Shown here: piece after piece, positions 11,710 to 51,332 of the stretch
Layout of the letters: each line of letters opens with the position of its first letter
How positions within the stretch are numbered: the stretch's first letter is position 1
Origin: Eurosta solidaginis
Lineage: Eukaryota; Arthropoda; Insecta; Diptera; Tephritidae
NCBI RefSeq assembly: GCF_040869045.1
Contig: NC_090319.1
Location: 52,424,779 to 52,488,778, forward strand
Direction of reading: 5' to 3'
DNA length: 64,000 nucleotides
Made by a program: the position numbers and the translations under genes
The notes under the pieces: generated by a model
Databases searched by the model: none
The model's input: the letters and a program-made list of their open reading frames with translations, nothing else
Told to the model about the DNA's origin: nothing

Positions 11710-12279
11710 TTTAACGAATATTAGTGACACTAAGTGATACCCACATCGCTATTCTGATGCTAAGTAAATGAAGTCAAAACAACAATAAAGCAGACAGTCA
11801 CTTGTATCTACGTAAAAGAATCAATCATTATGTCTACACATATGTACGTAAACGCAGCGGAGAAGCAACGCACAACTACATGCATATATCTAAGATACTC
11901 CCGAAAGTATGCAATAATTGTGCAAGTATCATTCACATATACACGCGCATGGGCTATGAGAGAAGCTATAAAATCGTGCATCTGTAGTTACAGATGAATT
12001 ATTTTATAGCTGATAACTAACTAGTAAGTTCTGGAAATAGAAGCGCCTAGAAATGTGTCAACAAGGGAACCGCACAGTACAAAAGCAGCAACAGTGGAGG
12101 TACGACAGTCGGTTTGATTTAAGCACGCTATCTGTCGAGCAATAGAAGTGTTATTTTGAAAGTAGTCTAATAAAGACCATTTTGCATTATCGAATATTGG
12201 AGTTATTTATTCAACAGTTTAGTGATTCGAACGTTAGCAGAAGGTTGCAAATAAGCGGAATTGCAGTAAATTCGTTATA
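11710..12279 (+). repeat. 5' LTR of gypsy-like copy 1
   Basis: It aligns to the 3' LTR at 27271-27800 and, more distantly, to the 580-bp LTRs of copy 2. The terminal TG and CA are both mutated (TT...TA). The TATA box reads TACAAAAG (about 12078) where the 3' LTR has TATAAAAG, so this promoter is probably weak or dead. AATAAAG near 12170 is the likely polyadenylation signal. A TTGGTGTCAGAAG primer-binding-like site follows at about 12280. Confidence 0.85.
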
Positions 12280-12338
12280 ATTGGTGTCAGAAGAGGAATT
12301 GTTGAATAAATTCCGAATATTTTGAATACACCTTGGAC

Positions 12339-12593: not shown

Positions 12594-12926
12594 ATGTCGT
12601 CACAAATGTCATCACAATTGGAATCCCAGGAAAACCGTATAACGTCCAAGATTGAAGCACAAGAAACGCGCATTTCAGAAATGTCGTCACAAATATACCC
12701 GATATGGCATTCCAACTGGAATCGCAGGAAACCCGTATAACATCACAATTTGAAGAACAGAAGACATATTTGGCATCTCAACTGGAATAGCAAGAGGCGC
12801 GTATATCTGAAATGTCGGCACAAATTTCGGAACAGGTATCATCGCAGCTCTTTGTGAAACTGGAAGAGCAGGAAGAGCAAAAATTTTACAACTCGAGGAC
12901 AAAATTGATGCCGAGATAAAAGCGTT
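12594..12926 (+). pseudogene. Gag coiled-coil region, broken (copy 1)
   Basis: The repeated coding pattern for SQLESQE/TRIS-type 11-residue units is visible (MSSQ, ESQENRI, IEAQETRI), matching copy 2 at 51345-51720. There are stops and frame changes. It ends at the BEL insertion, and its last bases GCGTT (12922-12926) are duplicated at 25560-25564. Confidence 0.65.
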
Positions 12927-13453
12927 TGTTTAGGCCACAGGCCTAAATATATCTCCCCTCCCTCGTAACATAATTTTCTTCGTTTACTACCACATATGCA
13001 TGCTTGTGATCACTAATACACACGGGCGTGTGTGAGTGGTAGTACGCATGTATCTTAGAGTTTTACCGCTGTGAGCCCGCGGTATAGCAACTTTGTTGCC
13101 GGGAAACCCAACGAAGGAGCTGTATCTCGGGTTCATCGGCTCATGTCGCAAAGAGGCTCGTCCTCTTTTGATCCAGCAGCCAGCAAAGGAACACGTAATC
13201 GCCCGTTCACGTAAGTTGTCAAATTCATAAAATAATTTCCGAAAATATCTTTACCATTTTCATTTTCACAACATCTGTTAATAAATTTCCTTAACACTTG
13301 TTGTATTTATACATATTGAATAAAAAAAACACTGTGAATTCTCTTGTATTAATACGAAACCCTTTTTGGTGTTTTTATTTTCTTATTTTTTTCGCCTTAA
13401 CTATTATTTAACAAATACGTGGGTGCGCGCCGTTGCCACCACGCATTTGTTCA
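12927..13453 (+). repeat. 5' LTR of the BEL/Pao element
   Basis: It starts with a perfect palindrome TTTAGGCC-ACA-GGCCTAAA (12929-12947), then U3. GTAAGT at 13211-13216 is a good splice-donor match. The 3' end contains TACGTGGGTGCGCGCC, part of a 28-bp block found again in the leader. Confidence 0.95.
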
Positions 13454-14720
13454 TGGTCCTTACCACGCCGGTAAGAAGAGCCAATCACCAAGAACTACAG
13501 TCCACTCCACTCCCTAGGCAATTAAATCGAGGAAGAAGAGATTTACAATAGTGATAATATATTCATCAGCAATTGGCATACACAAACAGATTTGAGCGAC
13601 ATCCAACCTCCAAACAACATCAACAACACCGACAATCCACAAAAGTCAATCTACTAATCCGGATCAGCAATTTATTGAAAGGTACGTGGTTTGAAAATAT
13701 TCCGTGCTAGGTAGGGTTTTCCTTTTCACTTTTAATAAAATTTCACAAAATAAAATTACAAATTACAAAGTGACTTTTTTATATGTAATAGTGCAAGTGA
13801 TTTTGTTTTTTTTCCGTGAAGTGAGAAGTCTCATCTTGTGCAAAAATTTGAAAAAGGCGCTTAACGCAGTTATTTAAAGTTTGTGCAACACGCCTTGTGA
13901 CTATCCGGAACTATCCCCCACCAGCGGTAAGATTTTCCGGACACAGCTCAAGGTAGCACAACACTGCTCTAAAAGGTTAACATAACCTCAAACACCGATT
14001 TGCGTCACTTTTCGATTTTCACCTTTGCAGGATTTATCTGAAAAAATTAATTTAATCCACTGCACAAAAATTCGATTTGTTAAGGTTGCTTATTCAGAAA
14101 CCTGTAAATTTATTTTAGGCGCACATTTAATTAAATAAAATTTTCTCCCACATAAAAATCACTTGCACTTATTTACACGGGCAATACGTTTGCAATTTAG
14201 TTTGGTGCTATAGTACAAAGTGCACTTAGTTACATACACATATATTGTTGTTGTTGTTTGGGTGGCCAAAAGGCTTATTTCCTGTTCAATTTTTTAAAAA
14301 TTGAATTATTTTTATTTTTCACTTGCGGCAATACACAAATCAGTTTTTGACTGATCTAATTTTTTGTGATACAAAAGATCACAGCCCTTGGTTAAATTAC
14401 CAAAAAAGTCCATAACGAACGTTCATACATTTCTTTATTTTTTCACTAACACCACTTTCTTCACTAGCCATTACTTATTGGCTTACACAAGTCATTGGCA
14501 CATCTGCATTAGAGCATTCTTTGAATAATTACGTGGGTGCGCGCCGTTGCCACCACGAAAATTGCACATTCTTTAAATTAATTCCTAGCTTTCTCGCAAG
14601 CTTCGAGGCCACTTCCTCGAGAGATCTCTCTCAAACACAGTCCTTCGTTTCAGTTCATTTTCACTCAATACTCTCTGCAAAGGCAATTAATCAATTAATA
14701 TTTCAATAAATTTTCATATA
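13454..14720 (+). other. BEL 5' leader between LTR and gag-pol
   Basis: It begins TGGTCCTTACC directly after the LTR, which fits a primer-binding site (TGG complements the CCA end of a tRNA); the tRNA was not identified. AAAG|GTACGT at 13678-13687 and CACCTTTGCAG at about 14021-14031 are donor- and acceptor-like sites that could define an intron. A 28-bp copy of the LTR end lies at 14530-14557. The 62-codon frame at 14521-14709 is not supported as a gene. Confidence 0.6.
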
Positions 14721-17700
14721 ATGGATACCTATACACGCCAAGCAGATGCAGTGACGGAGTATGAAAATGACTTCAACGACATGTCACCTTCACAACACAG
14801 TAAACACTCCCTAATATACCAAAGGGATGAGTTAAAAACTCTGTGGGAAGCTACGAAGGTGACATACGAAAAGCTCTTAGGTTCATCAGAGCTTGATTCA
14901 AAGGACTTATCGGCTATCAAGAAGAAGCATAAAATGTGCTATTTCAGCTTCCTAAAGTGTCAGGCGGCAATAGCTGAGCTTTTGGAAAATTTTGAAAAGA
15001 AAGATAAGAAAGTAGATGTCTCAGATAATATGGAATATCATGTGCGCCTGCCAGCATGTGATACGGATATTTTCAAAGGTGACTATATTTCATGGCCGTC
15101 TTTTAGGGACATGTTCACTGCCATATATATTAATAATAGTAAACTCCATGCAGTGCAAAAACTATACTATTTAAGGCAAAAAACTCAAGGGGAGGCCAAA
15201 GAGATAGTGGAACGGTGTTCCTTAACAACAGACGGTTTCGATACAGCGTGGAAAAATTTATGTGACCGATACGAAAACAAACGTATCTTGGTCAATGCTC
15301 AATTAAAAATTCTTTTTAGTTTAAAAGCAGTTGAGAGCGAATGCGGTAGCTCCATTAAAAAACTGCAACGTGAAATAAACAATTGTATCTCAGCGCTTCA
15401 ATGTCACAAGATTGACATATCAAACTGGGATGCAATTCTAACGTATTTGTGCTCCACAAAACTGCCAGAAACCACACTGGCTCTATGGGAACAAACCATA
15501 GAAAATAAAACAGAAATTTCAAAATGGGCAGATATGGATAAATTCTTATCCAGCAGATTCCAAACGTTGGAAACTGTCGTAGATATAAGAGGGGATACGG
15601 TTTCAAAACCCTCTAAGCCACATGCTTCTCGTTCCTCGGCAGATACATCGTCGAAACGATTAGGGTCCTACCAGGCAAGTGCAACAGTAGCCAAACCTAC
15701 GTGTAAGATGTGCAAAAGTCCTGCACATCGAATTTCAAAGTGTGAAAAGTTCTTACGTTTAACACCCAATAAACGGTTTGAGCAAATTAAGAGCAGCCGT
15801 GGGTGTATAAACTGCCTTTCTGCTGGCCATTCGGTGACAAAGTGCACCAGTCAAATGAACTGTGCCACATGTCATTTAAGACATCATACGCTGCTTCATA
15901 TTTCGAATCAGCCAAAACCAACAAATACTTCCGACACTATCGGAGCATCCACCTCACGGGAAGCTCAAATACGACGCAATGCGGAAAGAGAAAACTCTCC
16001 GATTAATAATGTGAACTCATGTTTCGCAAACACAAATAAAGGGGTATTACTAGGGACAGCTCAGGTCAAGATTCATTTTAATGGTGTTGACTATTCGGCG
16101 AGAGCCCTAATAGACTCGGGATCTGAATGTTCATTCATTACCGAGAAACTAAAGCGCAGAATTAATCTGCCATCCAAACACCTGCATGCCCAAGTTTCGG
16201 GCATCAATAATACAATGTCGGCACAAGTAAAAGAAGCGTGCAACATACAACTGCGGTCACCAACCGACCCATTAATCGAGATCAATACGATCATGCTGGT
16301 TTTACCACAACTGACAGGGAATCTTCCAACTTGCCGAATAAATGCAATGACTAGGCAAGCATTCCCTGACTTAGTACTGGCTGACAAAAGATTCTTTGTC
16401 AATGAGCCAGTCGACTTAATTCTGGGCGGAGACATATACCCCCAAATTATGCTAGGCGGTATCAGGAAGGACGTGCTAAACACATTAATAGCACAGGAAA
16501 CGGTGTTCGGCTGGATTTTGACAGGCCGGACAGATGCGGTTGATACAAATAAGACCCTAGTTTCATATTTCAATGAGGTCACTTTAGATAAACAATTGGC
16601 GGCTTTTTGGGAGATAGAGGAAATTCCAAAGAAAAGGAGCATCAATAACGATGACACTTACTGCGAGGAGCTATACAAATCCACAACAGTTCGGAACAAC
16701 GATGGCAAATACGTAGTCTCCTTACCCTTTAGGAAAGAGTTTAACTTAGGCCCCTCATTAAGAAGTGCGTGCTCTCAATTCTATCGCAACGAGACACGAC
16801 TTGCGAAAAACCCAGTCCTTCAAACGGAATACAACAGAGTTGTATCCGAATATGAAACTTTAGGGCACATGAAACAAATAGGCAATATTTCGCCAGACTC
16901 AAATGACTGTTACTTCCTACCTCACCATGCTGTTATAAAGGAGGGAAGTACAACGACAAAAGTCAGAGTCGTATTTAATGCATCTTGTCCTACCACTAAT
17001 GGCAAAAGTCTAAATGATGCCTTATATCCAGGTCCGATTCTTCAATCCGACCTGACAGTTCTTATACTACGTTGGCGGCTGTTCAAATACGTATTTAACA
17101 GCGACATAGAGAAAATGTATCGCCAAATATGGGTCAATGAAGACCAAACAAAATATCAGCGAATCATATTTCGCAAATGCCCCAAAAACCCAATTAACAT
17201 TTATGAATTGAAAACGGTAACCTTTGGGGTTAATTGTGCTCCGTATCTTGCGATTCGAACGCTGCACCAACTAGCTGATGACGTGGAGGCATCGCATCCA
17301 ATGGCAGCAGATATACTGCGAAATTGCATGTACGTTGATGACGTACTCGCCGGTGGACACAGCATCGAAATTGCAACCAAGGCAAGGGACGAAATATCAT
17401 TGGCATTGCAATCGGCAGGTTTCCCATTGCGAAAATGGACGTCCAACTGCAAGAAAATCCTACAGGGTATACCGAAGCAACACCTATTAAGCGAGGACTT
17501 TCTTGAGTTTGAAGACACCAGCATGGTAAAAGCACTCGGTATCAGGTGGAACGCCCATTTCGACTACTTTTACTTCACAGCGAAACCCTTTGACAATAAC
17601 CACGCCGTAACAAAAAGGTCAATACTTTCTGCGATCGCAAAACTTTTCGACCCTCTTGGCTGGCTGGCACCAGTCGTAATTGTAGCCAAAATAATAATGC

Positions 17701-19910
17701 AAAATATTTGGTTGGAAGGGACAGGCTGGGATGAAGATGTGTCTGAAACTACTCTACATCGGTGGCAATCATTCATGACGGACTACGAAAAGATCAACGA
17801 TATACGCATACCGCGATGGGTTCACTACACATTGAAGGACAATGTCGAAATACATGGATTCAGCGATGCCTCGGAAAAAGCATATGCCGCCACTGTTTTC
17901 CTGAGGGTACAAACAAAGGATCAAGTCTTCACCAACCTGTTGATGGCCAAAACGAGAGTAGCCCCGGTCAAAACCATATCATTGCCACGACTGGAACTCT
18001 GCGGCGCAGTCCTACTTGCAGAAATTATAGAGTCGGCCATAGAAAATATGCAACTTTCAAACATTAAAGTAACCCTTTGGACAGATTCGACTATAGTACT
18101 GGCGTGGATCCGAAAACCACCATGTTCGTGGTCAACGTTCGTGGCACATCGAATAACTAAAATCATCGATAAAGTAGGAGGCAAGGTATGGCGGCACGTA
18201 GACTCCGCGTCAAATCCTGCAGATTTGGCGAGCAGAGGCCTCTACGCTTCGGATCTAATCGACAATTCTTTGTGGTGGCAGGGACCTTCTTGGTTACAAG
18301 AAGACAACGAAAATTGGCCAACACAAGAAGAAGATTACAATACAAATATGGAGGAAAAGAGGGTGAAAGTTCATACAACTTCGGTCAAAAATAACTTTGA
18401 TATTCTAGATAGGTTTTCCGATTTACCAAGGGCCTTGCGGGTTATATCCTATATTCTTCGGTTTTTCCAGAATACGCACCCAACAACTAAAGCCTCCTTT
18501 AAAAGGGATTCTCATTCGATAGCTCCTGACGAAATAGAAAAAACAACACGAAGATTGATAACCATATGCCAGAGGCAACATTATCAAGAAGAGTACGCAA
18601 ATTTGAAGTCAGGAAAACTTATAAATGGGAAGAGTGAGATTTTACCCCTGAACCCATATATAGATGAAGAAGGCATCATTCGAACTGGGGGGCGGACAGG
18701 GGCATCGAAAGACATGTCCCATAATGAAAGTCATCCCATTATTCTTCCTTACACTTGCAGGTTATCCAGACTTATAGTCCAATCCTCTCATGAGACCACC
18801 CTGCATGGAGGGAACCAGCTGATGCTACGTCATATCCGCACTCAGTACTGGATCCCACGTGTTAAAATAATGATAAGGTCGGTTATCCACAACTGCAAAG
18901 TCTGCACTATTTACAGGAAGCGGACACAAACGCAACTTATGGGGATCCTTCCGAAGGAGCGCACCACCTTTTCTAGGGCCTTCACCAACACCGGGGTAGA
19001 TTTCGCGGGACCATTCGATATAAAATCCTACAGAGGGAGGGGATGTCGAATTTCGAAAGGATACGTCTGCCTGTTTGTCTGCTTTTCGACGAAAGCCATC
19101 CATCTAGAAGCGACAAACGACCTTAGTACCGGGTCCTTCCTAGCTGCCTTCGCCAGATTCGTATCCAGACGAGGCTGTCCAAAAAACGTTTACTCCGACA
19201 ATGGTACTAACTTTGTCGGAGCTTCTCGATCTTTACGATCCGAGTTTAAAGCATTTCTGCGTGAAGCAAGGAACGGAACGTTGACTAAATATAGCCATCA
19301 CATTATAGAATGGCATTTTATACCGCCAAGCGCTCCTCACATGGGAGGTTTGTGGGAAGCGGGGGTAAAAAGTTTTAAGACCCACTTTAAAAAGCTCGCG
19401 TCCGATCATAAATATACTCTCGAAGAGTTTACAACCCTCTTATGTCGAATTGAGGCCTGCCTCAACTCGAGACCTCTAAGTCCCTCATCCAACGACCCTT
19501 CCGACCTGGAGCCGCTTACTCCAGGCCATTTCCTCGTAGGTGGGCATCTTTTAGCTCCACCTGAACTCGACTGTAGTGAAAACCCTGCCTCCATTGTAAA
19601 CCGATGGCAAAAGATGAAAGCCCTTCATCAGACCTTTTGCAAAAGATGGAAATCGGAATATCTCACCGAGATCCAGAAACGGTATAAATGGAAACATCCA
19701 CAATCCAACTTAAAACCCGGGGACCTAGTCGTCATCAAGGAGGATAATCTACAACCGAACGAGTGGAAAATGGGGAGAGTCGTCAACACACACCCAGGCT
19801 CCGATAGCCGTGTACGTGTTGTTGACGTTCATACAATGAAGGGACAAATTACCCGACCAATCGCGAAACTGGTACTACTTCCGCCCAACTACAACGAAAA
19901 TGAACTTTAA
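14721..19910 (+). CDS. BEL/Pao gag-pol polyprotein, intact (1729 aa)
   Basis: A single open frame from ATG 14721. Domains in order: gag (DUF1759-type) about residues 115-270 with FKGDYISWPSFRDMF; cysteine/histidine knuckles from C328 (CKMCKSPAHRISKC, then CINCLSAGHSVTKC); a DUF1758-type retropepsin with active-site IDSGS at D465; RT with YVDD at 871-874; RNase H (Pao peptidase A17-type region) with GFSDAS at D1049; integrase with an HHCC zinc finger starting near H1357, catalytic D1427 (GVDFAGP), D1493 (YSDNGTNF) and E1546 (MGGLWEAG); and a C-terminal DUF5641-type domain with KPGDLVVIKED. All catalytic residues I can check are present. Gag and pol are fused in one frame, as usual in BEL. It makes the particle and the enzymes for reverse transcription and integration. 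Transcription is expected from the 5' LTR. Confidence 0.95.
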   Translation: MDTYTRQADAVTEYENDFNDMSPSQHSKHSLIYQRDELKTLWEATKVTYEKLLGSSELDSKDLSAIKKKHKMCYFSFLKCQAAIAELLENFEKKDKKVDVSDNMEYHVRLPACDTDIFKGDYISWPSFRDMFTAIYINNSKLHAVQKLYYLRQKTQGEAKEIVERCSLTTDGFDTAWKNLCDRYENKRILVNAQLKILFSLKAVESECGSSIKKLQREINNCISALQCHKIDISNWDAILTYLCSTKLPETTLALWEQTIENKTEISKWADMDKFLSSRFQTLETVVDIRGDTVSKPSKPHASRSSADTSSKRLGSYQASATVAKPTCKMCKSPAHRISKCEKFLRLTPNKRFEQIKSSRGCINCLSAGHSVTKCTSQMNCATCHLRHHTLLHISNQPKPTNTSDTIGASTSREAQIRRNAERENSPINNVNSCFANTNKGVLLGTAQVKIHFNGVDYSARALIDSGSECSFITEKLKRRINLPSKHLHAQVSGINNTMSAQVKEACNIQLRSPTDPLIEINTIMLVLPQLTGNLPTCRINAMTRQAFPDLVLADKRFFVNEPVDLILGGDIYPQIMLGGIRKDVLNTLIAQETVFGWILTGRTDAVDTNKTLVSYFNEVTLDKQLAAFWEIEEIPKKRSINNDDTYCEELYKSTTVRNNDGKYVVSLPFRKEFNLGPSLRSACSQFYRNETRLAKNPVLQTEYNRVVSEYETLGHMKQIGNISPDSNDCYFLPHHAVIKEGSTTTKVRVVFNASCPTTNGKSLNDALYPGPILQSDLTVLILRWRLFKYVFNSDIEKMYRQIWVNEDQTKYQRIIFRKCPKNPINIYELKTVTFGVNCAPYLAIRTLHQLADDVEASHPMAADILRNCMYVDDVLAGGHSIEIATKARDEISLALQSAGFPLRKWTSNCKKILQGIPKQHLLSEDFLEFEDTSMVKALGIRWNAHFDYFYFTAKPFDNNHAVTKRSILSAIAKLFDPLGWLAPVVIVAKIIMQNIWLEGTGWDEDVSETTLHRWQSFMTDYEKINDIRIPRWVHYTLKDNVEIHGFSDASEKAYAATVFLRVQTKDQVFTNLLMAKTRVAPVKTISLPRLELCGAVLLAEIIESAIENMQLSNIKVTLWTDSTIVLAWIRKPPCSWSTFVAHRITKIIDKVGGKVWRHVDSASNPADLASRGLYASDLIDNSLWWQGPSWLQEDNENWPTQEEDYNTNMEEKRVKVHTTSVKNNFDILDRFSDLPRALRVISYILRFFQNTHPTTKASFKRDSHSIAPDEIEKTTRRLITICQRQHYQEEYANLKSGKLINGKSEILPLNPYIDEEGIIRTGGRTGASKDMSHNESHPIILPYTCRLSRLIVQSSHETTLHGGNQLMLRHIRTQYWIPRVKIMIRSVIHNCKVCTIYRKRTQTQLMGILPKERTTFSRAFTNTGVDFAGPFDIKSYRGRGCRISKGYVCLFVCFSTKAIHLEATNDLSTGSFLAAFARFVSRRGCPKNVYSDNGTNFVGASRSLRSEFKAFLREARNGTLTKYSHHIIEWHFIPPSAPHMGGLWEAGVKSFKTHFKKLASDHKYTLEEFTTLLCRIEACLNSRPLSPSSNDPSDLEPLTPGHFLVGGHLLAPPELDCSENPASIVNRWQKMKALHQTFCKRWKSEYLTEIQKRYKWKHPQSNLKPGDLVVIKEDNLQPNEWKMGRVVNTHPGSDSRVRVVDVHTMKGQITRPIAKLVLLPPNYNENEL

Positions 19911-19944
19911 TAGTCCATATTCCTTATTCCCAAATAACCCAGCT

Positions 19945-20004
19945 CTCGTTCACCCCGAACGAGGCCAACAAACCAATAACCCAGCTCTCGTTCCCCAGAA
20001 CGAG
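19945..20004 (+). other. Two tandem perfect hairpins just after the pol stop
   Basis: CTCGTTC-ACCCC-GAACGAG (19945-19963) and CTCGTTC-CCCA-GAACGAG (19987-20004) are 7-bp perfect stems in a 42-bp direct duplication, 35 bp after the stop codon. The loop sequences differ while the stems are kept. They could act in the RNA (stability, packaging or 3' processing); that is inference. Confidence 0.6.
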
Positions 20005-21247
20005 GCCAACATACCCTAACGCAGATTCATTATCTGCCACAGAATCCGCACCCAAATCTCCCATATATGATATCCCATATGAACCAAACTTCGAAATTTA
20101 AAAGTATTTTCGAATAAGAAACTAATGTATCGTCGGGAGGAAAATGTACCTTAAATGTGATTATTCTTGAATACTCACTTATGATTCATATTTCGAACGT
20201 TTACTGGGTATAATACAAATTATTGGCAAAAGTTTCGATATATGATAGCGTCTACAGATTACATTTTCAGGGTTTTCATGCACGGAATCATCGGCTTTCT
20301 GAATTGTATTAGATGGAAAATATTCCATTTTATCATGCGTGCATTTTAGCGTAGTGTGTAATCAAACAACATCGTTCAGACTTTAAATTTGGAATCGAGC
20401 CCCTCTACCCAATCAGATAAATGTATAGGTTCCAAAACGCATATGGATGTGTTTGCCAATAACACGTCAGTTTATATGGAAATGTTTCTGCAATGTTCTG
20501 GTAGTCAATAAGAGTACTATTAAATTTGAATGTGCCAATCGTTCGTCCAAATTTCTTTTCGTATTCAAATACTTGTAACAAATCACAGCTGAGGTGATGT
20601 GGAAAAGCAGCCGAGCAGCAATTCTCCCTGATGGAGAAAAATACAAACATTGTCGCGTTTACCTACTTATATTCTACAATTTTTATGGAATTTAATTGCT
20701 GATATACAGCTTTCGATTGAAAACGGGCAAATTTTCACCGAGCGCCGCTTGTCTGTGCTCTTGACCACTGCGGCGCATATAAATCGTGTTTGATATTGAT
20801 CAAAGGTGTAGCGACCTCTGTGAGGAAAGTAAAATACAAATTGTCGTACCCACGCCCCCGAAGAGCCTAACATCACTTAACAAAATTTGAATTTTAAATG
20901 TTGTGACCCCCACACCCCTCGAATAATTATTTTACTACGCCACTGAACACTCGCATACACTGTGTTGCTAACTTTATTTAAAAACATATTCCCGCAACAA
21001 GGAAATCTTCCTCTTGGAGCCTCTCTACGGCATATTTTATGTAAGAATAATCTATAAATTTGATCATTTATTAAGATCGGTCTAAATCTCCTCCTCATCA
21101 TTAATAATTTTACCTTACATAAATTGGCTATCGGCATGCCCACATTTATTAAAAAAAAAAAAATAATAAAAAATATATCAAATATTTGCTAATTTTATTG
21201 ACATCAACTTTTGCAGTTTTTACAACCCTGCACAACCAATTTGGCTT
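20005..21247. other. BEL cargo, unassigned part
   Basis: No domain recognised. The minus strand from about 20947 down reads CAGTGGCGTAGTAAAATA, which resembles the CAGTGGCGTAG ends of some DNA transposons. No opposite end was located. AATAAA on the minus strand near 21190 lies where the 3' end of the zinc-finger gene would be. Confidence 0.4.
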
Positions 21248-22700
21248 CTATATTTCTTTCACGCTAAGCTGGATCTTCGCTTTTGTACACAGTTGCTCAG
21301 AAGCTAAACGAAATGCTAACGGGCATAATTCACATCTATAAACATTATCACAGAGATGAGTACGCAGCTGTTTGATTAGATCGTTGCCTTGAGCATAAAC
21401 ACCTTCGCAATATTTGCATTTGTAAGGTTTTTCACCGTTTTGTGTGCGCACATGAACGCGCTGGTGATCTGAGCGAACAAAACGCTTGTCACAACAAACA
21501 CAATTATACGGCCTTTCACCAGTATGATTCTTTTCGTGTTTCCTCAACTGATTAAGAAAATGAAATGCAGAACCGCGAATACCGCAGATATGTGCTTTGG
21601 TTTTGCTATGTGACGCCTTATGATTGGCTATATCGCTGTAACAACGGAATCTCAACGGGCAATGGGGACACTCAAAGGGCTTGTCATCACGGTGACGCAA
21701 ACGATGCTGTTTCATGTTGCCCGCCGTGCTGTATGATTTGCCGCACTCGGGACACAAGTGAGGGAGTTCCCTCACGGAACGTGTTACACCATGCCTCCTT
21801 AACCTAGCGCTAGTATAACTCTTGTTGCATAATTTGCAAGTGTGGTTTGTTGTTTTCTTTGCTTTATTCTCAGTATGTTTTCCTTATAATGTCTCGTTAA
21901 CGCACGCTGAGAGCTGTATATTTTACCACACAGTTTGCAAGCTTTGCAATAAAAAATTTTCAGTTACTCTCTCGTCAGGGACTAAGCGTTGTTCATCTAA
22001 AGATTCTGCTTTATGAAAATAACGATTGCAAACATCACATTTAAACACTGCAATATTGAAGCTGTTCCTTTTGCTGGAAAGTCGCATAGTGCAGCTTTAC
22101 ATGGTTTCGCAAAAGGCTAGGTCTGCTTAAAGATTTATTGCATATATGACATATAAATTTTGGCGCACTATAAATTGTTAGAGTTGAACTTACCTGCTCT
22201 TCCATTGTTTTGAATGTTGAAGACAGGGTTCCATCATCGCTATATACCGTAGCTTCGTCATCACAAGCCTCATTTTAACAAGCTCGTTTACATCACCTTT
22301 TGCATCCTTAATACGTACAACATTTCTGCTGCTGCAACATTTCTGTCAGCTGCAAGTGTTTGTAGTCCATCCAATAAAGGTTTTACAGATTCAACCACCA
22401 TTACCTCTTCACTGGTTCCTAACAGAGATGCAGGTGCTGACATTTTAACCCCCGTTATTGGTTCCGTTATGGTTAATGGTTTATGATTTCTCTCAGCATT
22501 CCATTCACGCAACTGTCGATCGGATTGGGTGCACTTCTGTTGGAACAGGTAAAAACTACGTAATTGTTGAACGCATTCACAACAGATTTTTTTGGGGCAG
22601 CTTGCCATTTACATGAACTTCTATTTGCGGTATTGTGATGGCGAGCAACTCAACCATTCGTAGAAAGCCACATTACAAGAGTACAATTTATTGGCTTTAC
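21248..22700 (-). pseudogene. ZAD/C2H2 zinc-finger gene, broken, antisense cargo in BEL
   Basis: On the minus strand, the C-terminal half of a ZAD domain is encoded at about 22690-22500 (a segment with HVNGKLP in one frame and ICCECVQQL, FQQKC and QLREW in another). A one-base change in an A7 run near 22595 separates the frames. Then comes an acidic linker and about eight C2H2 fingers down to 21248, including FICHICNKS and RYEC-type fingers joined by TGERPY and NGEKPY linkers. Damage: several frameshifts, one finger with Cys replaced by Arg (HICGIRGSAF) and others with His replaced by Gln. The first half of the ZAD was not found. ZAD zinc-finger proteins are insect transcription factors; this copy cannot make one. 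No intron is evident. It lies antisense to the BEL transcript. Confidence 0.8.
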
Positions 22701-22844
22701 ACTCAACGCCGCGTGTTTTCTATCAATGACTTTTTGTTTTCCATTCAGGAAATGGAAAAGCGTAGCAGATGTCAAAATCTCTACACTTCATGTCTGATTG
22801 TCAATAATTATTGCAATACAACCGTTAGGCCTCATGCGCAATCA

Positions 22845-22925
22845 TCTCGCGCACTACACGTCATGCACTACATGCCGCACTACACGTCATGCCGCACTAC
22901 ACGTCACGCACTACATTCCGCACGA
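22845..22925 (+). repeat. Short minisatellite, GCACTACACGTCATG units
   Basis: GCACTACACGTCATGC recurs four times, with interspersed GCACTACAT variants, at spacing of about 14-33 bp. Seen directly; function unknown. Confidence 0.6.
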
Positions 22926-23559
22926 AATATCGAGCAACACGCCATACATGTCGCGTATTACATATCTCGACCAATCATTAATTTGGTCGAGATTTAAAAT
23001 ACTTAATTCCACGAATTTCAACATTATCGACAATACACGTCAAAAATAATGTTGAATGGTGGAAGTGCAACTCTGTAATACCTTTTCAGCCAGGTTTCTA
23101 ACCGTTCCGTGTGGTGGCAGGCCGCTTGTTGTGACAAAAAAATTTCACCACAAATCAAAAAATAAATCTTTAGGACTACTTCGGCGACATCTAATGACAT
23201 AAAATAAATTATAAAATCCCTACAAAAGGTTGGTCACAAAACCTAATCACGCCCATGCAAGTGTGACTAGGAATATAACCTATGACCTGGTAAAAGGACT
23301 AGTCAAATGACGTGGAGTGACGAGAGCGTTTTTGCAGGGATGCACTAGAGGCGCTAAAGCACCAGCCACATCGTATGGATGCGTGCTAACTCCGTTTTTT
23401 CTTCGTATTTACTTATGGCCATTAATTTTTATTTCAATAAAATGTTTTTTTTTCTCTTGCGAAAATATATGAGAGATAATATTTTTTGGCTTACGCCACC
23501 CAAACAACATTCCGCCAACCTCAATTTGGGCATGATCAATGATATCAACATTCTTTCAG

Positions 23560-24768
23560 ATCATGACCCGCTACGAAACTCTATTGGCCAAGTCAGAGGG
23601 GGGCGCCAAGCGCTTCGACGTCGCCTGCCAGCTCTGCGGTAGAAACCATAGTATGAGGCTCTGCGCTGAGTACAGAAGCAAGTCGCCCGAAGAAAGGTTA
23701 CGGGCTGTCCTACTACATAAATACTGCCCCAATTGTTTGTCGCCGTTTCATCGCGTTAACAACTGCAAAAGTAAATATCGATGCAAAAGGTGTAACGAGA
23801 AGCACCATACTACGCTTCACCTCGAGGACCAACGTCCTGCACGCGCAGAAACCATTGTCGTCGGCGACGACAGCCAATCGGACGACGAGTTGTCGATCCA
23901 CTTATCGGGACCAACTAAGTCTTGGGCCCAACAAGTCGAGGAGGCAGAGTTGGAAGAAGAAATGGCTAGAGCCGAACAAAACCCCTCAACCAGCAATCTT
24001 GGGATGCGTAGTTTTCGGCCGCTGCTACAGCATGAACGGTAGGCGGAAAAGTTCAAGAAAGAACGACAAGAACAAGACAATTGGCGGCAGCAGGACACCG
24101 AACTCCATACCACATCATCGAAGGGAAACGCTGCCCATGGTCGGCCCAGAGCAGCTAAACGCGTAACGAGGCAAAATCGAAACAAAACCGCGCCATATCA
24201 AAGTCACGCGAGCAAAGTCGACAGTAGACGAGCGCTATTACAAGCCGTACCAGCCGGCTTCCGAACGGGACGCCTATCCCAGACAACGACCCCATCACCC
24301 ATCATGCGACCATTTGTGCCCATCGCACCGACTGCCGTCGTACGGATCGAATCGCGGGGCCACTTGCATTTGGTTCGAGCTATAATCGATCCCTGCGCCA
24401 CAAGTACAATTGTCGATGCAGAGCTGGTGCGCGACCTACAGTTAGAGCGTCAAGGATCAGGGCAATGCACAATAATCCTGCGCGGGAAATTCGGGTCATC
24501 CACACACTTGACCACTCAAGCCAGCATTGTTGCAAGCCACTATCGGTTGAGTCCGCCATCAAATGTAGATCCGAAGATTGCCGCTCCATTCCAATTCATG
24601 CGGCTGGCCGACCCACAGTTCTACCGCTCATCGCCAATTCGGCTTACACTCGGCGCAGATATATACGCCGAAATGATGGTGAGCGGAACGCCAGCAACAA
24701 CAGTTGGCGGTCTCCTAACCCAACCGACCGTGTTCGGGTTGGTGGTCTCGGGAGCCTGCCAAAAATAA
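23560..24768 (+). pseudogene. Second BEL-type gag knuckle/retropepsin frame with one in-frame stop
   Basis: An open frame runs from ATG 23563 (or 23539) to 24768, broken only by TAG at 24040-24042. It encodes cysteine-rich gag knuckles (CQLCGRNHSMRLC, then YCPNCLSPFHRVNNC and CKRCNEKHHTTLH), an acidic linker, a basic linker and a DUF1758-like retropepsin with IIDPCATS at the active site and LTLGADIY downstream. The active-site Asp is present but the usual D-S-G is D-P-C, so activity is doubtful. No N-terminal gag, RT or integrase accompanies it. TTCTTTCAG at 23551-23559 is a splice-acceptor-like site right before it, and TTCTTTTCTTTTTCCACAG ends at 24880 after it. It may be a captured fragment of another BEL element or an accessory frame read from a spliced RNA. 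Confidence 0.7.
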
Positions 24769-25032
24769 ATATCCGACTTTCACGCCTCACACATGCGCCA
24801 TCATATATATCTTTAAGTAAATATGCACGGAATTTAAAACCACGTACGTATATCTAATAACTTCTTTTCTTTTTCCACAGGAGAGCGAAACGTGAGGTCA
24901 ACCATCTGGCGTGCAGTGCTTGCAGTCCGCATCTGCACTGCCTTCTTTCATTAGCACCTTACTGGACGTGCGATCGCGTGGCATCCCTTTTTTTTAATGT
25001 ATTCTTTGTTGCTTACGGCAAGGGGGCCGGTA
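24769..25032 (+). other. BEL 3' non-coding region and polypurine tract
   Basis: It contains the strong acceptor-like site ending at 24880 and the purine tract AAGGGGGCCGG (25020-25030) directly before the 3' LTR, the expected primer for plus-strand DNA synthesis. Confidence 0.75.
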
Positions 25033-25559
25033 TGTTTAGGCCACAGGCCTAAATATATCTCCCCTCCCTCGTAACATAATTTTCTTCGTTTACTACCACA
25101 TATGCATGCTTGTGATCACTAATACACACGGGCGTGTGTGAGTGGTAGTACGCATGTATCTTAGAGTTTTACCGCTGTGAGCCCGCGGTATAGCAACTTT
25201 GTTGCCGGGAAACCCAACGAAGGAGCTGTATCTCGGGTTCATCGGCTCATGTCGCAAAGAGGCTCGTCCTCTTTTGATCCAGCAGCCAGCAAAGGAACAC
25301 GTAATCGCCCGTTCACGTAAGTTGTCAAATTCATAAAATAATTTCCGAAAATATCTTTACCATTTTCATTTTCACAACATCTGTTAATAAATTTCCTTAA
25401 CACTTGTTGTATTTATACATATTGAATAAAAAAAACACTGTGAATTCTCTTGTATTAATACGAAACCCTTTTTGGTGTTTTTATTTTCTTATTTTTTTCG
25501 CCTTAACTATTATTTAACAAATACGTGGGTGCGCGCCGTTGCCACCACGCATTTGTTCA
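25033..25559 (+). repeat. 3' LTR of the BEL/Pao element
   Basis: 527 bp, with no difference from 12927-13453 found by reading. It ends TTGTTCA and is followed by GCGTT (25560-25564), the second copy of the target duplication. Confidence 0.95.
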
Positions 25560-25564
25560 GCGTT

Positions 25565-27270: not shown

Positions 27271-27800
27271 GAAACTGTTCTAATGCTAAGTAAATGAAGT
27301 CACAACAACAATAAAGCAGACAGCCACTTGTATCTACGTAAAAGAATCAATCATTATGTCTACACATATGTACGTGCACGAAGCGGAGAAGAAACGCATA
27401 ACCACATCATATATCTGAGATACTCCCAAAAGTATGCAATAATTGTGCAAGTATCACTCACATATACACGCGCATGGACTATAAGAGAAGCTATAAAATC
27501 GTGCATCTGTAGTTACAGCTGAGTAATTTTATAGCAGATAACTAACTAGTAAGTTCTGGAAATAGAAGCGCCTAGAAATATGTCAACGAGGAAACCGCAC
27601 AGTATAAAAGCAGCAGCAGTAGAGGCACGACAGTCAATTTGATTTAAGCACGCTATCTGTCGAGCAATAGAAGTGTTTTTGAAAGTAGCCTAATAAAGGC
27701 CATTTTCCATTATCGAATATTGGAGTTATTTATTCAACAGTTTTGATTCGAACGTTAGCAGAAGGTTGCGAATAAGCGGAATTGCAGTAAATTGGTTACA
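27271..27800 (+). repeat. 3' LTR of gypsy-like copy 1 (5' end deleted)
   Basis: It matches 11751-12279 with scattered differences and lacks the first 40 or so bases. TATAAAAG is at 27603-27610 and a TAATAAAGGCC polyadenylation signal lies near 27690. It ends GGTTACA. The many differences from the 5' LTR show the element is old. Confidence 0.8.
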
Positions 27801-27804
27801 ATAT

Positions 27805-31403: not shown

Positions 31404-32795
31404 CTACGCCAACCGGCGCCAATTGGTCACAACAAGGGAGTATAAATCGTTTTCCACCTGGTCCTTCCAACGGAGTGGGGGCCGCCCTCTACCTCTGCTT
31501 CCATAGGCGGGTTCCGATAGAAACACTTTCTTGGCCGGAGTATCATCTTTCATTCGCATAACATGGCCTAGCAAGCGCAGCCGCTGCGTTTTAATTCGCT
31601 GGACTATGTTGATGTCTGCGTATAGCTCGTACAGCACATCATTAAATCTTCTTCGGTACTCGCCATCGCCAATGCGTAGAGGTCCATAAATCTTTCGAAG
31701 AACTTTTCTCTCGAACACTTCCAAAGCCGCTTCATCTGCTGTTGTCATGGTCCATGCTTCTGCCCCATATAGCAGGACGGGTACGATAAGAGACTTGTAG
31801 AGCATGATTTTCGTTCGCCGAGAAAGGAATTTACTTTTCAATTGCCTACCTAGTCCAAAGTAGCATTTATTGGCAAGATTGATCCTTCGCTGGATTTCAG
31901 TGCTGATTTTGTTGCTAGTGTTGATGCTGGTTCCCAAATAAAGGAAGTCTTTTACTATTTCGAAATTATGGCTGCCAACAGTAGCGTGGTTGCCAAGGCG
32001 CGTATGCGCTGACTCTTTGCTTGATGACAGCAGGTACTTCGTTTTGTCCTCATTCACCATCAAACCCACCTTTACCGCTTCTTTTTCCAGTTTGGAGTAA
32101 GCATATGCCAGTAATTGCACGCTTTTATAGTATATTGTTCCAGTGCGGTTAAGTTCTGCAGCTAGTATAATTTTCTCCAGCATCAAATTAAAGAAATCGC
32201 ACGATAGGGGGTCACCCTGTCTGAAACCTCGTTTAGTTTCGAACGGCTCGGAGAGGTCCTTCCCAATTCTGACTGAGCTGATGGTGTTGCTCAACGTCAT
32301 TTTGCACAGCCATATAAGTTTTGCGGGGAAACCAAATTCAGACATAGCGGCATATAGGCAGCTCCTTTTCGTGCTGTCGAAGGCGGCTTTAAAGTCGACG
32401 CAGAGGTGATGTGTGTCGATTCTTTTTTCACTGGTTCTTTCCAAGATTTGGCGCATTGTGAAAATCTGGTCGATGGTAGATTTACTAGGTCTGAAGCCGC
32501 ACTTATAAGGTTCAATCAGCCGGTTCACGGTGGGCTTCAATCTTTCGCACAATACACTTGAAAGGACCTTATATGCGATATTGAGAAGGCTGATTCCACG
32601 ATAGTTGGTGCATTTTGCAGTATCCCCTTTCTTGTGGACTGGGCAAAGAACACTTAGATTCCAACCGTCGGGCATGCACTCTTCCGCCCATATTTTGCTA
32701 AGAAGCTGCTGCATGCGCCTTACCAACTCCTCGCCGCCGTACTTGAATAGCTCCGCAGGCAATCCATCAGCGCCCACGGCCTTGTTGTTTTTCAA
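31404..32795 (-). pseudogene. LINE reverse transcriptase, catalytic YADD deleted
   Basis: The frame is open for 463 codons. RT motifs are clear: NNKAVGADGLPAE at the N-side, NYRGISLLNIAYKVLS, CGFRPSKSTIDQIF, DFKAAFDS (motif A) and FRQGDPLSCDFF (motif B). Motif C should follow LLAYA as DD; instead the frame goes directly from QLLAYA to YSKLEKEA near 32100, so about 20-25 codons including both aspartates are missing in frame. The C-terminal region with YGAEAWTM, FERKVLRKIYGPL and GRGRPPLRW is complete. The enzyme cannot be active, although the frame is otherwise unbroken. Confidence 0.85.
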
Positions 32796-32806
32796 TTTGG
32801 TTATTG

Positions 32807-33895
32807 CTATTCTAACTTCATCATAATCGGGCGGGGGACATATATTCCATCATCATCGATTGCGGGATCGGGTTCTTTATCTCTGCGCGCTGAATTGCTG
32901 CCTCCATTTAGGTGAACAGAGAAGTATTCCCTCCATAATCTAAGCACTCTCTGGACATCAGTTACAAGGTCGCCGTTTTCGTTCCTACAGGAGTGTACCT
33001 TGGTCTTAAAACTTTCTGTCTGTCGCCGTATTTTTTGGTAAAATGTTCGGGCGTTATTCCTGGTGGCTAGCAGCTCAAGGTCCTCGCCCTCACGCCTTTC
33101 TGCTTCTGCTTTTTTCTTCCTGAAACGGCGTCTCGTTTCCTTTTGCAACTCACGATAGCGTTCACACACTCCTCTTGTCGCGCTCGCTTTTAACGTAGCC
33201 CTGTAGGCAACGTCTTTTCTTTCAGTTGCAACGCGGCATTCTTCATCGTACCAGTTGTTTTCTTGTAGTCACCGGTAAGCAATTTTTCCTCGGCGGCAGT
33301 ACGAAGTGCTTTGGAAATATGCTCCCACTGCTCCTGTATTCCTTCAGGATAAGTTGTGCTCTCAGAGAGCAGGTGTGAGAGTCGAGTTGCAAAATCATTG
33401 GCAGTCTGTTGTGATTGAAGCTTTTCGACGTCTAGCTTCCCTTGTGTTTTTTGTTCCTTGGTTTTAGCCGCGTTGAGGCGGGTGCGTATTTTGGCTGCAA
33501 CGAGATAATGGTCCGGGTCGATGTTAGGTCCTCGGATCGTGCGCACATCTAAAACACTGGAGGCATGCCGTCCGTCTATCACAACGTGATCGATCTGGTT
33601 CCGATTATTTCGATCAGGAGACAGCCATGTAGCTTGGTGTATCTTTTTATGCATGAACCTCGTGCTGGATATCACCATGTTTCGAGCACCGGCAAAGTCA
33701 ATCAGCCTCAGTCCGTTAGGAGAAGTTTCATTTTGTAGGCTGAACTTTCCGACTGTAGAGCCAAAAACACCTTCTTTGCCCACCCTGGCGTTAAAGTCAC
33801 CAAGCACGACTTTTATATCGTGACGGGGGCAGCGCTCGTATGTGCGTTATAATTGTTCATAAAAAGTGTCTTTCACCTCATCGTCTTTCTCCTCT
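32807..33895 (-). pseudogene. LINE endonuclease C-terminal part and linker, frameshifted
   Basis: 33807-33190 encodes LGDFNARVGKE (the metal- and nucleic-acid-binding GDFN motif), DHVVIDGRH and PDHYLVAAKI, ending the APE domain. A frame change and a further frame at 33169-32807 encode a basic linker (RRRFRKKKAEAERRE) that leads to RT. On the other side the APE continues across the HINE-like insertion to 35865. Confidence 0.75.
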
Positions 33896-45410: not shown

Positions 45411-45509
45411 GCTCCCGTATATCAAGGGCACACATATAAATAAAAACAAAACAAAAAAGTGAATTTAATTGCCAACTCGGTGGGAAAAACAAACAAATAA
45501 ATAGTGAAA

Positions 45510-46646
45510 ATGGTAGAATCGCATGGCCAGTTCATGATTATATCTAGAAAAAGTGAAACTGGCGAAAATCTTAAAAATGTTTCACCTTTTCTAATTAAAA
45601 AGGTTATAGATAACCATTGTGAAGGCGAAGTTGAGGAATGTAAAAAATTGCAAAACGGTACATTATTTGTCAAAGCCAAAAGTGCGGAACAGGCAAACAA
45701 ACTTCTCAAAATCACCTCATTTACCAAAGACATCAAGGTCTCCGTCACCGAAAACCTTACGCTCAACAGCAGCAAAGGAATTATTTACTCAAATGACTTG
45801 AGAGGCATTAGTGAAGAAATAATATTAAGCGAACTGGCGGAACAGGGTGTTACAGAAGTTAAGATAATTATAAAGAAAGGCGAAGGTGAAGAACAAGAAA
45901 CAGGTCTGATAATCCTAACTTTTCACAAATCTACACTACCGGAGCATATCATGATTGGCTACCATCAAACCAACATACGACCATATATTCCAAAACCTTT
46001 ACGCTGCAAAAATTGTTTACGCTTTGGCCACCCATTTAAAGTATGCGAAAATCCAAAAGCATGCACCAAGTGCACCTTACCAGAACATAACAACACTAAT
46101 GCAGACGAGCAATACAAAAATATTCCAACATGCGTAAATTGTACAGAGAGTAAACTCTCGCTCACCTCTCACTCAACATTAGATAAGTGTTGCCCAATAT
46201 TCGTCAAACATCAAGAGATCACAACCATAAAAACTCTTCAAAAAGTAAGTCACAAAAAAGCCATAGACATTTACAAACAATTACACCAACAAAATGAAAG
46301 CACATTTTCAACAAGTGATAATCGCGAAAAAGAAATAAATATACAAATTCCCGAAAGTATCACAGCAAATACAAGTACTTTAATACAACCATCTACCACA
46401 AGACAACACATACCTTACGATGATGTAGAAATTGATGCAATTCTCAACGAGGCTCCATCATCATCGCTATCACCTAAGCCAAATAAAAACGGCAGTGCCA
46501 CCCTCTTAAGAATTCTACCCAGAAATACAAACAGAAAAACTATAAATTTATTGAAAAACAAAAACAAAAAGGATAATCATCAAGACCACGTTCAAAGCTC
46601 ATACAATCCGTACAACGACCAGGACGTTAGTATGGAATATACATAA
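45510..46646 (+). CDS. I-element ORF1, gag-like nucleic-acid-binding protein
   Basis: An intact frame of about 378 codons from ATG 45510 (an upstream in-frame GTG is not a start). An N-terminal region of about 160 residues precedes a cysteine-rich block: CKNCLRFGHPFKVC from C166, then CTKC...H and CVNC...H...C, giving three knuckles as in I and Jockey-type ORF1 proteins. The C-terminus is Asn/Lys/Ser-rich and ends in YNPYNDQDVSMEYT. Such proteins bind LINE RNA and form the particle for retrotransposition. The intact state contrasts with the broken ORF2. Confidence 0.85.
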   Translation: MVESHGQFMIISRKSETGENLKNVSPFLIKKVIDNHCEGEVEECKKLQNGTLFVKAKSAEQANKLLKITSFTKDIKVSVTENLTLNSSKGIIYSNDLRGISEEIILSELAEQGVTEVKIIIKKGEGEEQETGLIILTFHKSTLPEHIMIGYHQTNIRPYIPKPLRCKNCLRFGHPFKVCENPKACTKCTLPEHNNTNADEQYKNIPTCVNCTESKLSLTSHSTLDKCCPIFVKHQEITTIKTLQKVSHKKAIDIYKQLHQQNESTFSTSDNREKEINIQIPESITANTSTLIQPSTTRQHIPYDDVEIDAILNEAPSSSLSPKPNKNGSATLLRILPRNTNRKTINLLKNKNKKDNHQDHVQSSYNPYNDQDVSMEYT

Positions 46647-46922
46647 ATCATATACATATTTTTAAGAAAATCATTACCTCAAATATATATTTGCATATAC
46701 TTTGTACATATATACATACGTAAATACACACTCGATACATCTATATAAATTTACCAAAAAAAAAAAACACTAAGGCAAAAAACAAAAAAAACAAAAAAAA
46801 AAACACTAAGGCACAATAATAAACCATATATTTAGGTACTTAAATAGCTATTAAGTAAAACTTATACTACATTGATACAGATTTATTTAGCCATATACAT
46901 ATATAAATCCAATATAAAAACA

Positions 46923-49900: not shown

Positions 49901-50457
49901 TCTACTGCCGAAATGATAGCCATTTTTACAGCAGTTAATACAGTTAAGAAACTACGAGGAAAGTTCGCGATATGCTCGGACTCATTGTCCGCCTTAGATG
50001 CAATTAAGAATCAATCCAACAGTGACTACTACCCTTATACTATAAGAGAAGCTCTTTACAAACACTCACCAAAAATTATCTTAATATGGATACCTAGCCA
50101 CAAAGGTATTGCAGGAAATGAATTAGCTGACGAAACTGCCAAATACGCATCTTTAGCTCCTCTTATTATGCATACGAACTTTCACACAAGGGACATAAAA
50201 AAATATGTAAATAACCGATGCAAAACAAACTCAACAAATCATACATGGAGCTTGTCGTCACACTGGTACAAGTTAACTAATCCACACAAGCAACCAATTA
50301 CAAACTTTTTCAAAACAACAAAGAATATTGAGAAAAGCCCAAATAGACTAGATCTAGTGAAATATGAAAGACTTTGCCTAGGTCATAGCCGTCTTACTCA
50401 CGAACATCTACTTGATAGCAGCCTTAGCAACAACTGTCAATACTGTGGTTATAATAC
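46923..50457 (+). pseudogene. I-element ORF2 (endonuclease, RT, RNase H), frameshifted
   Basis: It starts ATG 46923 with MAVTILQWNVRG and QIISLQELHT, the APE opening. A frameshift lies near 47190-47230; the frame then continues with IITGDFNSHH and GSDHFPI. The linker and RT N-side run from 47749; a second frameshift lies near 48375; then SYRPISLNACCAKLLEK, HQFGFRKGKSVTEAL, LDFAKAFDRL, IPQGSPLS and AYADDFHLI (catalytic DD present). A third frameshift lies near 49440. RNase H follows with FIFTDGSKT, AEMIAIF, CSDSLSALDA and GNELADETA. It is cut by the gypsy-like LTR at 50458 and continues at 54145. Confidence 0.85.
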
Positions 50458-51037
50458 TGTAACGAATGTTAGCAGCACTGAGCGATGCTATCGTCTCTAA
50501 GCGATGCTAACCAGTGACGTGAATGCACATCAATAATTCATCATTATGTATCTACATAAACGAATAAATAATTACGTCTACACATATGTACGTATACGAA
50601 CATCTGAGCGGCAATGCACAAATACATGCATATATCTTATCTGAGTTGTCACAAGAGAGAGCAATAATTTGTGCACGTAGTTGTGGCTGGCGATTTTGTA
50701 GCCGAAACAACTAGTAGCTTCTGGAAATCGAAGAGCCTAGAAGTATGCAGCGTAAACTATAAAAGCAGTGCAGGCGAGTAAGAAGGAATTGAGTTTGATT
50801 TGAGTTGTCAAGCAGTTACGACTAAGACGATATCTAGCAAGCAATAGCATAGTGGAGTTTCATTTGAGCTATCAGTTTGGTTATTAAGCTATTCGTTGCA
50901 GAGTTTGAGTGTTATTGTGAAGTATTTTAATAAAGGCCTTTTTCCATTATTCAATATTGGAGTTATTTATTCAACAGTTTAGCGATACGAACCTAGCAAA
51001 AGGGCAAATAAGAGGAATTTGCAGCAAATTCGTTACA
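50458..51037 (+). repeat. 5' LTR of gypsy-like copy 2
   Basis: 580 bp, no difference from 53561-54140 found by reading. TATAAAAG is at 50758-50765 and AATAAA at 50929-50934. Confidence 0.92.
50758..50765 (+). promoter_or_regulatory. TATA box of the copy 2 LTR promoter
   Basis: TATAAAAG, about 170 bp before the AATAAA signal of the same LTR. The older copy 1 has TACAAAAG in its 5' LTR, so the promoter is intact only here (and in 3' LTRs). Confidence 0.6.
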
Positions 51038-51088: not shown

Positions 51089-51319
51089 ATGGCAAAGTTC
51101 AGTGAATTGAAAATCCAGCAACTGCAGGAGTTGGAGAGCCGTGGATTGAATACAACCGGCAATAAGATCGAACTTCAAGCACGGCTACGAGAGGTAATGG
51201 AGTTGGAAGGAATTGATGTGGACGAGTATGTCTTTTATCCTGATGTGGAAGAGCCAGCGACTAAATTGGAGGAGAAGATAGAGACTTCGAATCCATTGGC
51301 GTGTGTAGACACTAAGTAA
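51089..51319 (+). pseudogene. Gag N-terminus with SAP-like domain (copy 2), cut off by a 4-bp insertion
   Basis: It encodes MAKFSELKIQQLQELESR, then GLNTTGNKIELQARLRE and the acidic EGIDVDEYVFYPDVEEPAT segment. It matches copy 1 at 12339-12593. Right after CACTAA, copy 2 has an extra four bases (GTAA) relative to copy 1, which gives a stop at about 51317-51319 and shifts the frame. Without them the frame would run on into 51333-53549. This insertion may be the only lesion in the gag of this young copy. A SAP domain is a DNA-binding fold of about 35 residues. Confidence 0.7.
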
Positions 51320-51332
51320 CGCGATACTAGCA

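Follow-up and report, generated by a model that had tools for sequence, protein, structure and literature searches.

The stretch analysed here, called the window, comprises 64,000 nucleotides of contig NC_090319.1 (positions 52,424,779 to 52,488,778) of the tephritid fly Eurosta solidaginis. It is part of the contig labelled C1 in a 1.9-Gb assembly, further contigs of which are labelled C2, C3, C4 and C6. The window holds a young long terminal repeat (LTR) retrotransposon of apparent BEL/Pao type with an open gag-pol frame and, on the opposite strand, a spliced copy of a host-type ZAD/C2H2 zinc-finger gene. Other members of the same family carry other sequence, mostly host genes, in the same place. 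The parts of the window element, including predicted signals, are as follows (window coordinates; a slash marks a splice-like junction).

12922-12926: target site duplication GCGTT, left
12927-13453, plus strand: 5′ LTR
13454-13471, plus strand: primer-binding-site-like stretch beginning TGGTCCTT, adjoining the 5′ LTR
13682-13683, plus strand: splice-donor-like GAAAG/GTACGTGG, in 10 of 10 leaders compared
13927-13928, plus strand: splice-donor-like CAGCG/GTAAGATT, in 10 of 10 leaders compared
14721-19910, plus strand: gag-pol, a single open frame (DUF1759, protease-like, reverse transcriptase (RT), Pao peptidase A17, integrase zinc-binding, DUF5641)
19911-20045, plus strand: constant spacer past the pol stop
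20046-22720 (about): cargo slot, holding the ZAD cassette in this copy and unrelated sequence in 12 of 14 other slots
21104-22674, minus strand: antisense spliced ZAD/C2H2 cDNA, recognized by Pfam and by exact exon joins relative to a four-exon donor-like gene
about 21820-22674, 21720-21819, 21483-21719 and 21104-21482, minus strand: exons 1, 2, 3 and 4 of the ZAD cDNA
22721-23535, plus strand: constant ‘mid’ region, in 10 of 10 other copies compared
22747-22748, plus strand: splice-acceptor-like CATTCAG/GAAATG at the right slot edge, in 11 of 11 aligned copies
23558-23559, plus strand: splice-acceptor-like CTTTCAG/ATCATG before gag2, in 10 of 10 copies
23563-24768, plus strand: gag2, a second gag/protease gene, with one stop here at 24040-24042
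24879-24880, plus strand: splice-acceptor-like TTTCCACAG/GAGAGC in the tail, in 10 of 10 copies
25020-25032, plus strand: polypurine-tract-like AAGGGGGCCGGTA
25033-25559, plus strand: 3′ LTR
25560-25564: target site duplication GCGTT, right

The two LTRs match at 527 of 527 positions and the GCGTT duplication is exact on both sides, as an earlier, sequence-only reading of this DNA had reported. An LTR pair, TG...CA ends and a short target duplication, the marks looked for in a BEL/Pao insertion, are all present. Within gag-pol, DUF1759, RT, Peptidase_A17, Integrase_H2C2 and DUF5641 exceed their Pfam cut-offs; the protease and rve matches fall below theirs, and RNase H is not named by Pfam. Peptidase A17, DUF1759 and DUF5641 are associated with BEL elements, and the predicted gag, protease, RT and integrase stand in BEL order, an arrangement that fits a BEL/Pao LTR retrotransposon. 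When the flanks are joined so as to keep one GCGTT, they align without a break across the junction to a related gypsy-type gag at 51.3-52 kb. This continuity favours a single clean insertion and speaks against an assembly join of two different loci, a reading that was rejected. The BEL copy is most simply read as one insertion into an older gypsy-type element. LTR-like repeats of that surrounding element lie at 11749-12281 and 27275-27802, and a second gypsy-type gag frame of 746 amino acids lies at 51309-53549.

A search of the fly's own genome with the LTR returned at least 41 matches among those listed (the best 40 of 1421 candidates were scored), and a search with the end of pol was scored for the best 40 of 2299; both figures are lower bounds and not copy numbers. 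Eleven copies, A to K, were compared: the window copy (A) and ten same-strand LTR pairs spaced 8.7-14.6 kb. They were chosen by similarity to A and by LTR spacing, a set that leaves out wider-spaced, clustered and opposite-strand pairs. Five-base target duplications are exact in eight of the 11 (D has 4 bases, H agrees at 4 of 5 and F could not be judged), the LTRs of a copy diverge by 0-0.017, and the gag-pol DNA of the ten other copies is 95-100% identical to that of the window copy wherever it is present. TGGTCC occupies the primer-binding-site-like position in every copy except K (10/11), and GGCCGGTA directly precedes the 3′ LTR in all 11. The segment 22721-25032 was found in all ten other LTR-to-LTR copies compared, gapped in H and split by an inversion in K, and the first 135 bases past pol were recovered by BLAST in eight of the ten, partly in H and not in J.

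Two copies are defective in ways of their own. Copy J (L025/L026, C6:178144200-178154000) has no integrase and only a small part of RT; because its LTRs are identical over 535 bases despite this loss, it was probably mobilised by the proteins of other copies. Copy K (L027/L028, C6:82407700-82418400) lacks the leader, gag and part of RT, and its interior is inverted, one breakpoint falling within gag2; the ATGCT duplication on the outside is exact. It looks like a self-integration.

Between the constant 135 bases and the region starting at about 22721 lies a slot whose content is unrelated in different copies. Seven cassette types were recognized among 15 slots, those of A to K and of four further loci (L060, L061 and L062, each read only in part, and L059, read minus its first bases), and all 15 are filled with about 2-5 kb of extra sequence, four of them incompletely read. 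The ZAD cassette is common to A, G and K. Copies B, C, D, F and H have a common cassette backbone with differing sub-pieces, the cassettes of E and I show no relation to those of other copies by BLAST, and J holds further, different genes. L060 and L061 carry I-type cassettes (99%). L059 has a new type, yet about 640 bases of it are common with the ZAD lineage; L062 is likewise new, yet about 630 bases match E at 79%. Two identified genes are present in each of B, H, J and L059, and in F as well if a weak RGS match is counted. The sequence-only reading had asked whether other copies would lack the ZAD cargo: most do (12 of 14 other slots), and the same place in them holds other sequence instead.

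Except for TBCD, RGS, INTS7 and the ZAD domain of the window copy, whose matches are weaker, each cargo was identified by a Pfam match above cut-off or by a strong match to the PDB. Seven of the 12 identified pieces are antisense to the element: ZAD-C2H2, UMP-CMP kinase (2.4e-56), AP-1 beta (5.5e-37), a CDP-alcohol phosphatidyltransferase, microspherule protein, transferrin and Met-tRNA synthetase. The five sense pieces are a LIM domain above its Pfam cut-off, importin-13 (a PDB chain named CADMUS, 1.5e-47, which we take to be Drosophila importin-13) and, with matches below cut-off, TBCD, RGS and INTS7. Each cassette piece searched against the genome recurs: ZAD in 10 places including the window copy, UMP-CMP kinase in 17, TBCD in 7, AP-1 beta in 11, and INTS7 in 11 at 93-100% identity. 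Three further candidates found no Pfam or PDB support and were not counted, namely DNAJC13 for the second piece of the INTS7-type cassette, folliculin for one piece of L062 and a low-density lipoprotein (LDL)-receptor tail for one piece of E. An intron considered for older INTS7-type copies was also rejected: in L063, the only older copy examined, the extra 313 bases are coding-like and were lost at a short direct repeat.

The ZAD cargo gives the clearest view of a source. Its C2H2 fingers exceed the Pfam cut-off on the minus strand and its ZAD domain falls just under (26.8 versus 28 bits), which upholds the antisense ZAD/C2H2 relic, inside a young element with open gag-pol, proposed in the sequence-only reading. 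The alignment to a ZAD zinc-finger gene called for there was also obtained. A donor-like gene at C4:22613691-22617671 has four exons and three introns (60 bases, about 2.4 kb and 79 bases), each intron with a GT start and an AG end; none of the three is present in the cargo, which has exact, sequence-checked exon-exon joins. By exon, the window cargo differs from this gene by about 7-19%, and about 250 nucleotides of its ZAD end, kept in other copies, have been deleted. For 7 of the 10 places the cargo was compared with the C4 gene: the ratio of nonsynonymous to synonymous substitution rates (dN/dS) ranges over 0.59-0.77, three of these places contain stops, and the alignment of the window copy is poor around its deletion. 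The cargo appears to decay as a passenger, near neutral. Protein matches to the finger cluster were for the most part to distant C2H2 proteins of vertebrates. The donor-like gene lies among many partial ZAD/C2H2 matches, mostly on one strand, at C4:17-24 Mb, probably a large zinc-finger gene cluster.

Intron loss extends to a second cargo. The TBCD piece matches C2:233696590-233718106 as five pieces with four gaps, judged from coordinates only. Cargo free of donor introns, the mark of an LTR-mediated retrocopy, was thus found for ZAD (three introns) and, by coordinates, for TBCD (four), which points to spliced host mRNA as the source, at least there. For the second I-type cassette piece, a donor would fit at C3:263863192-263868073, where the match is split.

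Cassettes also seem to have moved between element lineages. In 300-base windows, copy A is 98-100% identical to I over 13227-19826 and 97-100% over 23427-24626. Its slot is 98.7-100% identical to two other ZAD loci and unrelated to that of I. B is the nearest copy in the first LTR window (99.7%) and in the tail (98.3%), J in the later LTR windows. The window copy is thus a mosaic, with the backbone of one lineage and the cassette of another, a pattern indicating that cassettes have been joined to different backbones. Behind the same kinase piece, B carries importin-13 and F carries RGS, with no flanking duplications evident by eye, and H seems, also by eye, to retain the end of the importin-13 piece. 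The ZAD edges, inspected for short similarity between element and mRNA at the switch points, gave no clear match. Short repeats occur at some deletion ends, in internal deletions only. The differing pieces of B and F and these repeats fit template switching.

Downstream of the slot, gag2 confirms the second gag/protease frame of the sequence-only reading, which had counted it as cargo. The gene is open in seven of ten copies (B, C, D, E, G, I and J), has one stop in A and in F, and is rearranged in H. Among nine copies, leaving out H for its rearranged end and K for its inversion, dN/dS is 0.10-0.21 in 30 of 36 pairs. The closest proteins among those listed are from Eurosta solidaginis, and 12 of 15 matches, at 35-49%, come from Ceratitis, Rhagoletis, Bactrocera and other Eurosta lineages. 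Strong constraint, these relatives and its presence in the ten other copies identify gag2 as a gene of the element and rule it out as cargo.

The splice-like signals of the element are kept despite up to about 30% divergence of leaders and gag2. An NCBI Eurosta protein model (P0121) leaves the element frame exactly at the gag2 acceptor; the loci examined do not contain the first residues of this model, so that the exon upstream may be external to the element. If the predicted sites are used as proposed, the slot would be inside an intron of the gag2 message. The family has a fixed plan of LTR, leader, gag-pol, cargo slot, gag2 behind splice-acceptor-like sites, and LTR. Two repeats were seen along this plan. 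ACGTGGGTGCGCGCCGTTGCCACCACG occurs near the LTR end (13417-13443) and in the leader (14531-14557), and a similar form starts the slot of one cassette type (left edge in B, C, D, F and H); it is a possible packaging or switching signal. In the mid region, short direct repeats around CGCACTACACGTCA (22845-22940) vary in number by copy.

Taken as a whole, it is likely that an abundant BEL/Pao family in Eurosta solidaginis captures host mRNAs by template switching and exchanges the resulting cassettes, the window copy being a young member. Host mRNAs would be packaged in particles alongside element RNA, and the reverse transcriptase would switch templates, joining host sequence to the element. Sense pieces would be made in minus-strand synthesis, antisense pieces on the plus strand or via strand switching. 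The position of the slot, downstream of the pol stop and, as proposed, within the intron of the gag2 message, may be what makes cargo tolerable there. Our confidence in this account derives from the intron losses of ZAD and TBCD, not from AP-1 beta. A broader claim is put forward tentatively and may well prove too strong: that an animal LTR-retrotransposon lineage has evolved an intronic cargo bay, which stays full because host cDNAs of either orientation are constantly being captured and exchanged. If true, the family would act as a permanent retro-transduction system and supply antisense host transcripts across the genome.

Capture of mRNA by LTR elements is already known; new here are the shared slot, the scale and the mixed orientation. 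In LTR-mediated retroposition, an LTR element takes up spliced host mRNA, which is explained by template switching within particles, and maize Bs1 is cited as containing retrocopies of three cellular genes (PMC5408686); the work of Tan et al. (2016) on this process enters through the two papers citing it (PMC5408686, PMC9674220). The Eurosta family is alike in holding spliced host mRNA within an LTR element and differs in that a single slot takes at least seven types of cassette, in sense or antisense, and each searched piece recurs in 7-17 places. Maize also has 425 intact LTR elements with gene fragments, representing at least 189 captures, none with more than one standard gene (PMC2774510); Eurosta elements similarly carry gene fragments, whereas copies B, H, J and L059 hold two identified genes. 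Plant gene capture has been reviewed (PMC13317346). In Plutella, Pxyfem joins an antisense partial PxyMasc cDNA to LTR-retrotransposon open reading frames (ORFs) and yields silencing RNAs (PMC9674220). The likeness lies in an antisense partial cDNA of a host regulator joined to LTR-retrotransposon sequence; Pxyfem loci sit in W element graveyards, while the Eurosta carrier is a family with young copies. LTR retrotransposons of bdelloid rotifers have extra ORF3s (esterase, exonuclease, env-like; PMC5408684) and are comparable in the varied origin of their extra genes, but those ORF3s are coding whereas the ZAD cargo is apparently a decaying passenger. Achilles, a BEL-Pao family of the olive fly with about 7.5 kb sequenced and the 3′ end missing (PMC4580426), is likewise a tephritid element with a single gag-pol frame, and the available part of its description mentions neither slot nor second gag. 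The main text of a metazoan BEL/Pao survey (PMC3118150) nowhere contains ‘host gene’ or ‘zinc finger’. Among the best-ranked titles and abstract openings, in a search with the subscription literature mostly outside it, we met no BEL/Pao family with a swappable slot for host cDNA.

Several observations weigh against capture and exchange by the family. Packaging, template switching and splice-site use are all deduced from sequence. Hardest to explain is the antisense majority (7 of 12), which simple minus-strand switching does not give; it could possibly reflect plus-strand switching or the arrival in the slot of copies made by LINEs. The ZAD 3′ junction has no poly(A). Donors are a further weakness. 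The spliced model of the C4 gene opens for 207 amino acids only, ending before the fingers, so this gene may be a relic, or else a paralogue or close relation of the actual donor; the indels of the ZAD cargo, present in all compared places and mostly common to copies, may have arisen in the donor. For AP-1 beta, two loci match the cargo, each as two pieces (C4:24868455-24869333, gap 56 bases; C1:212482102-212482990, gap 64 bases); either may be the host gene, and the cargo may or may not have lost an intron. No DNA-level donor was found among the 17 places of UMP-CMP kinase, and that of INTS7 is not settled. Three identifications are below Pfam cut-off: TBCD (weak match, 1e-4, backed by its donor gene match), RGS (22.1 versus 23.9 bits) and INTS7 (27.5 versus 42 bits). 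C and D hold a portion of the shared cassette with no named domain. Finally, the six remaining gag2 pairs, with dS of at most 0.025 and few changes, range in dN/dS from 0.13 to 2.96.

The host pieces might instead have been brought into a BEL copy by another mobile element (Helitron-like DNA capture or LINE-made processed copies), with BEL only as carrier. Helitron cargo includes antisense pieces and composites of several genes, which the Eurosta cassettes resemble, and a spliced copy made by a LINE lands in either orientation, so that antisense cDNA is easily explained. We nonetheless regard this as unlikely. For ZAD, the exact joins between exons rule out capture of unspliced genomic DNA, and the kept introns expected of Helitron or Pack-type cargo were not found in ZAD or, by coordinates, in TBCD. 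Of the poly(A) tail and target duplication of a LINE-processed pseudogene, sought for ZAD only, the tail is absent at its 3′ edge and no duplication is evident by eye, and a poly(A)-tailed pseudogene insertion was rejected for this cargo on the former ground. No duplication is evident by eye around the B and F pieces, and all seven cassette types lie between the same flanking regions. Selection on the cargo, as a source of antisense or small RNA against host genes or as a stuffer for length or packaging, with empty slots being lost, is compatible with capture by the family and, as an account of the slot, quite unlikely. It agrees with the filling of all 15 slots with about 2-5 kb (four incompletely read) and with a report that LTR-borne antisense cDNA silences a Plutella host gene (PMC9674220). 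It sits poorly with near-neutral ZAD cargo and with cassettes that vary in gene and orientation; empty slots may also have been missed among copies picked by similarity and LTR spacing. Very improbable, and refuted by the comparison of copies, is a single foreign 5.1-kb cargo (ZAD plus the second gag/protease) recently gained by the window copy alone, as identical LTRs and a perfect duplication had suggested in the sequence-only reading. The interval 19911-25032 is not foreign throughout: only about 20046-22720 is variable cargo, 22721-25032 recurs in ten other copies, and gag2 is constrained. The element did move as a whole; the ZAD capture is older than that insertion, being shared with nine other places and diverged from the donor-like gene. 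A separate target duplication around the cargo, as envisaged there, was not seen by eye.

Reconstructions of host-mRNA capture by LTR elements have usually had one old event each to work from. In this family, whose young copies share a genome, several independent captures would be open to study, some with donor-like genes, along with different stages of insertion, of deletion and of exchange. The mechanism of cellular gene capture, from which transducing retroviruses arise, thereby comes within reach of direct tests, and so do the antisense captures that are as yet unexplained. The antisense host-gene copies could also seed small-RNA control, as in the Plutella report.

Scans of the window for tRNAs and against Rfam gave no match. 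Elsewhere in the window, LINE-like open frames (endonuclease, RT-like) were noted by eye at 45501-50500 and 31404-33846, on the plus and minus strand.

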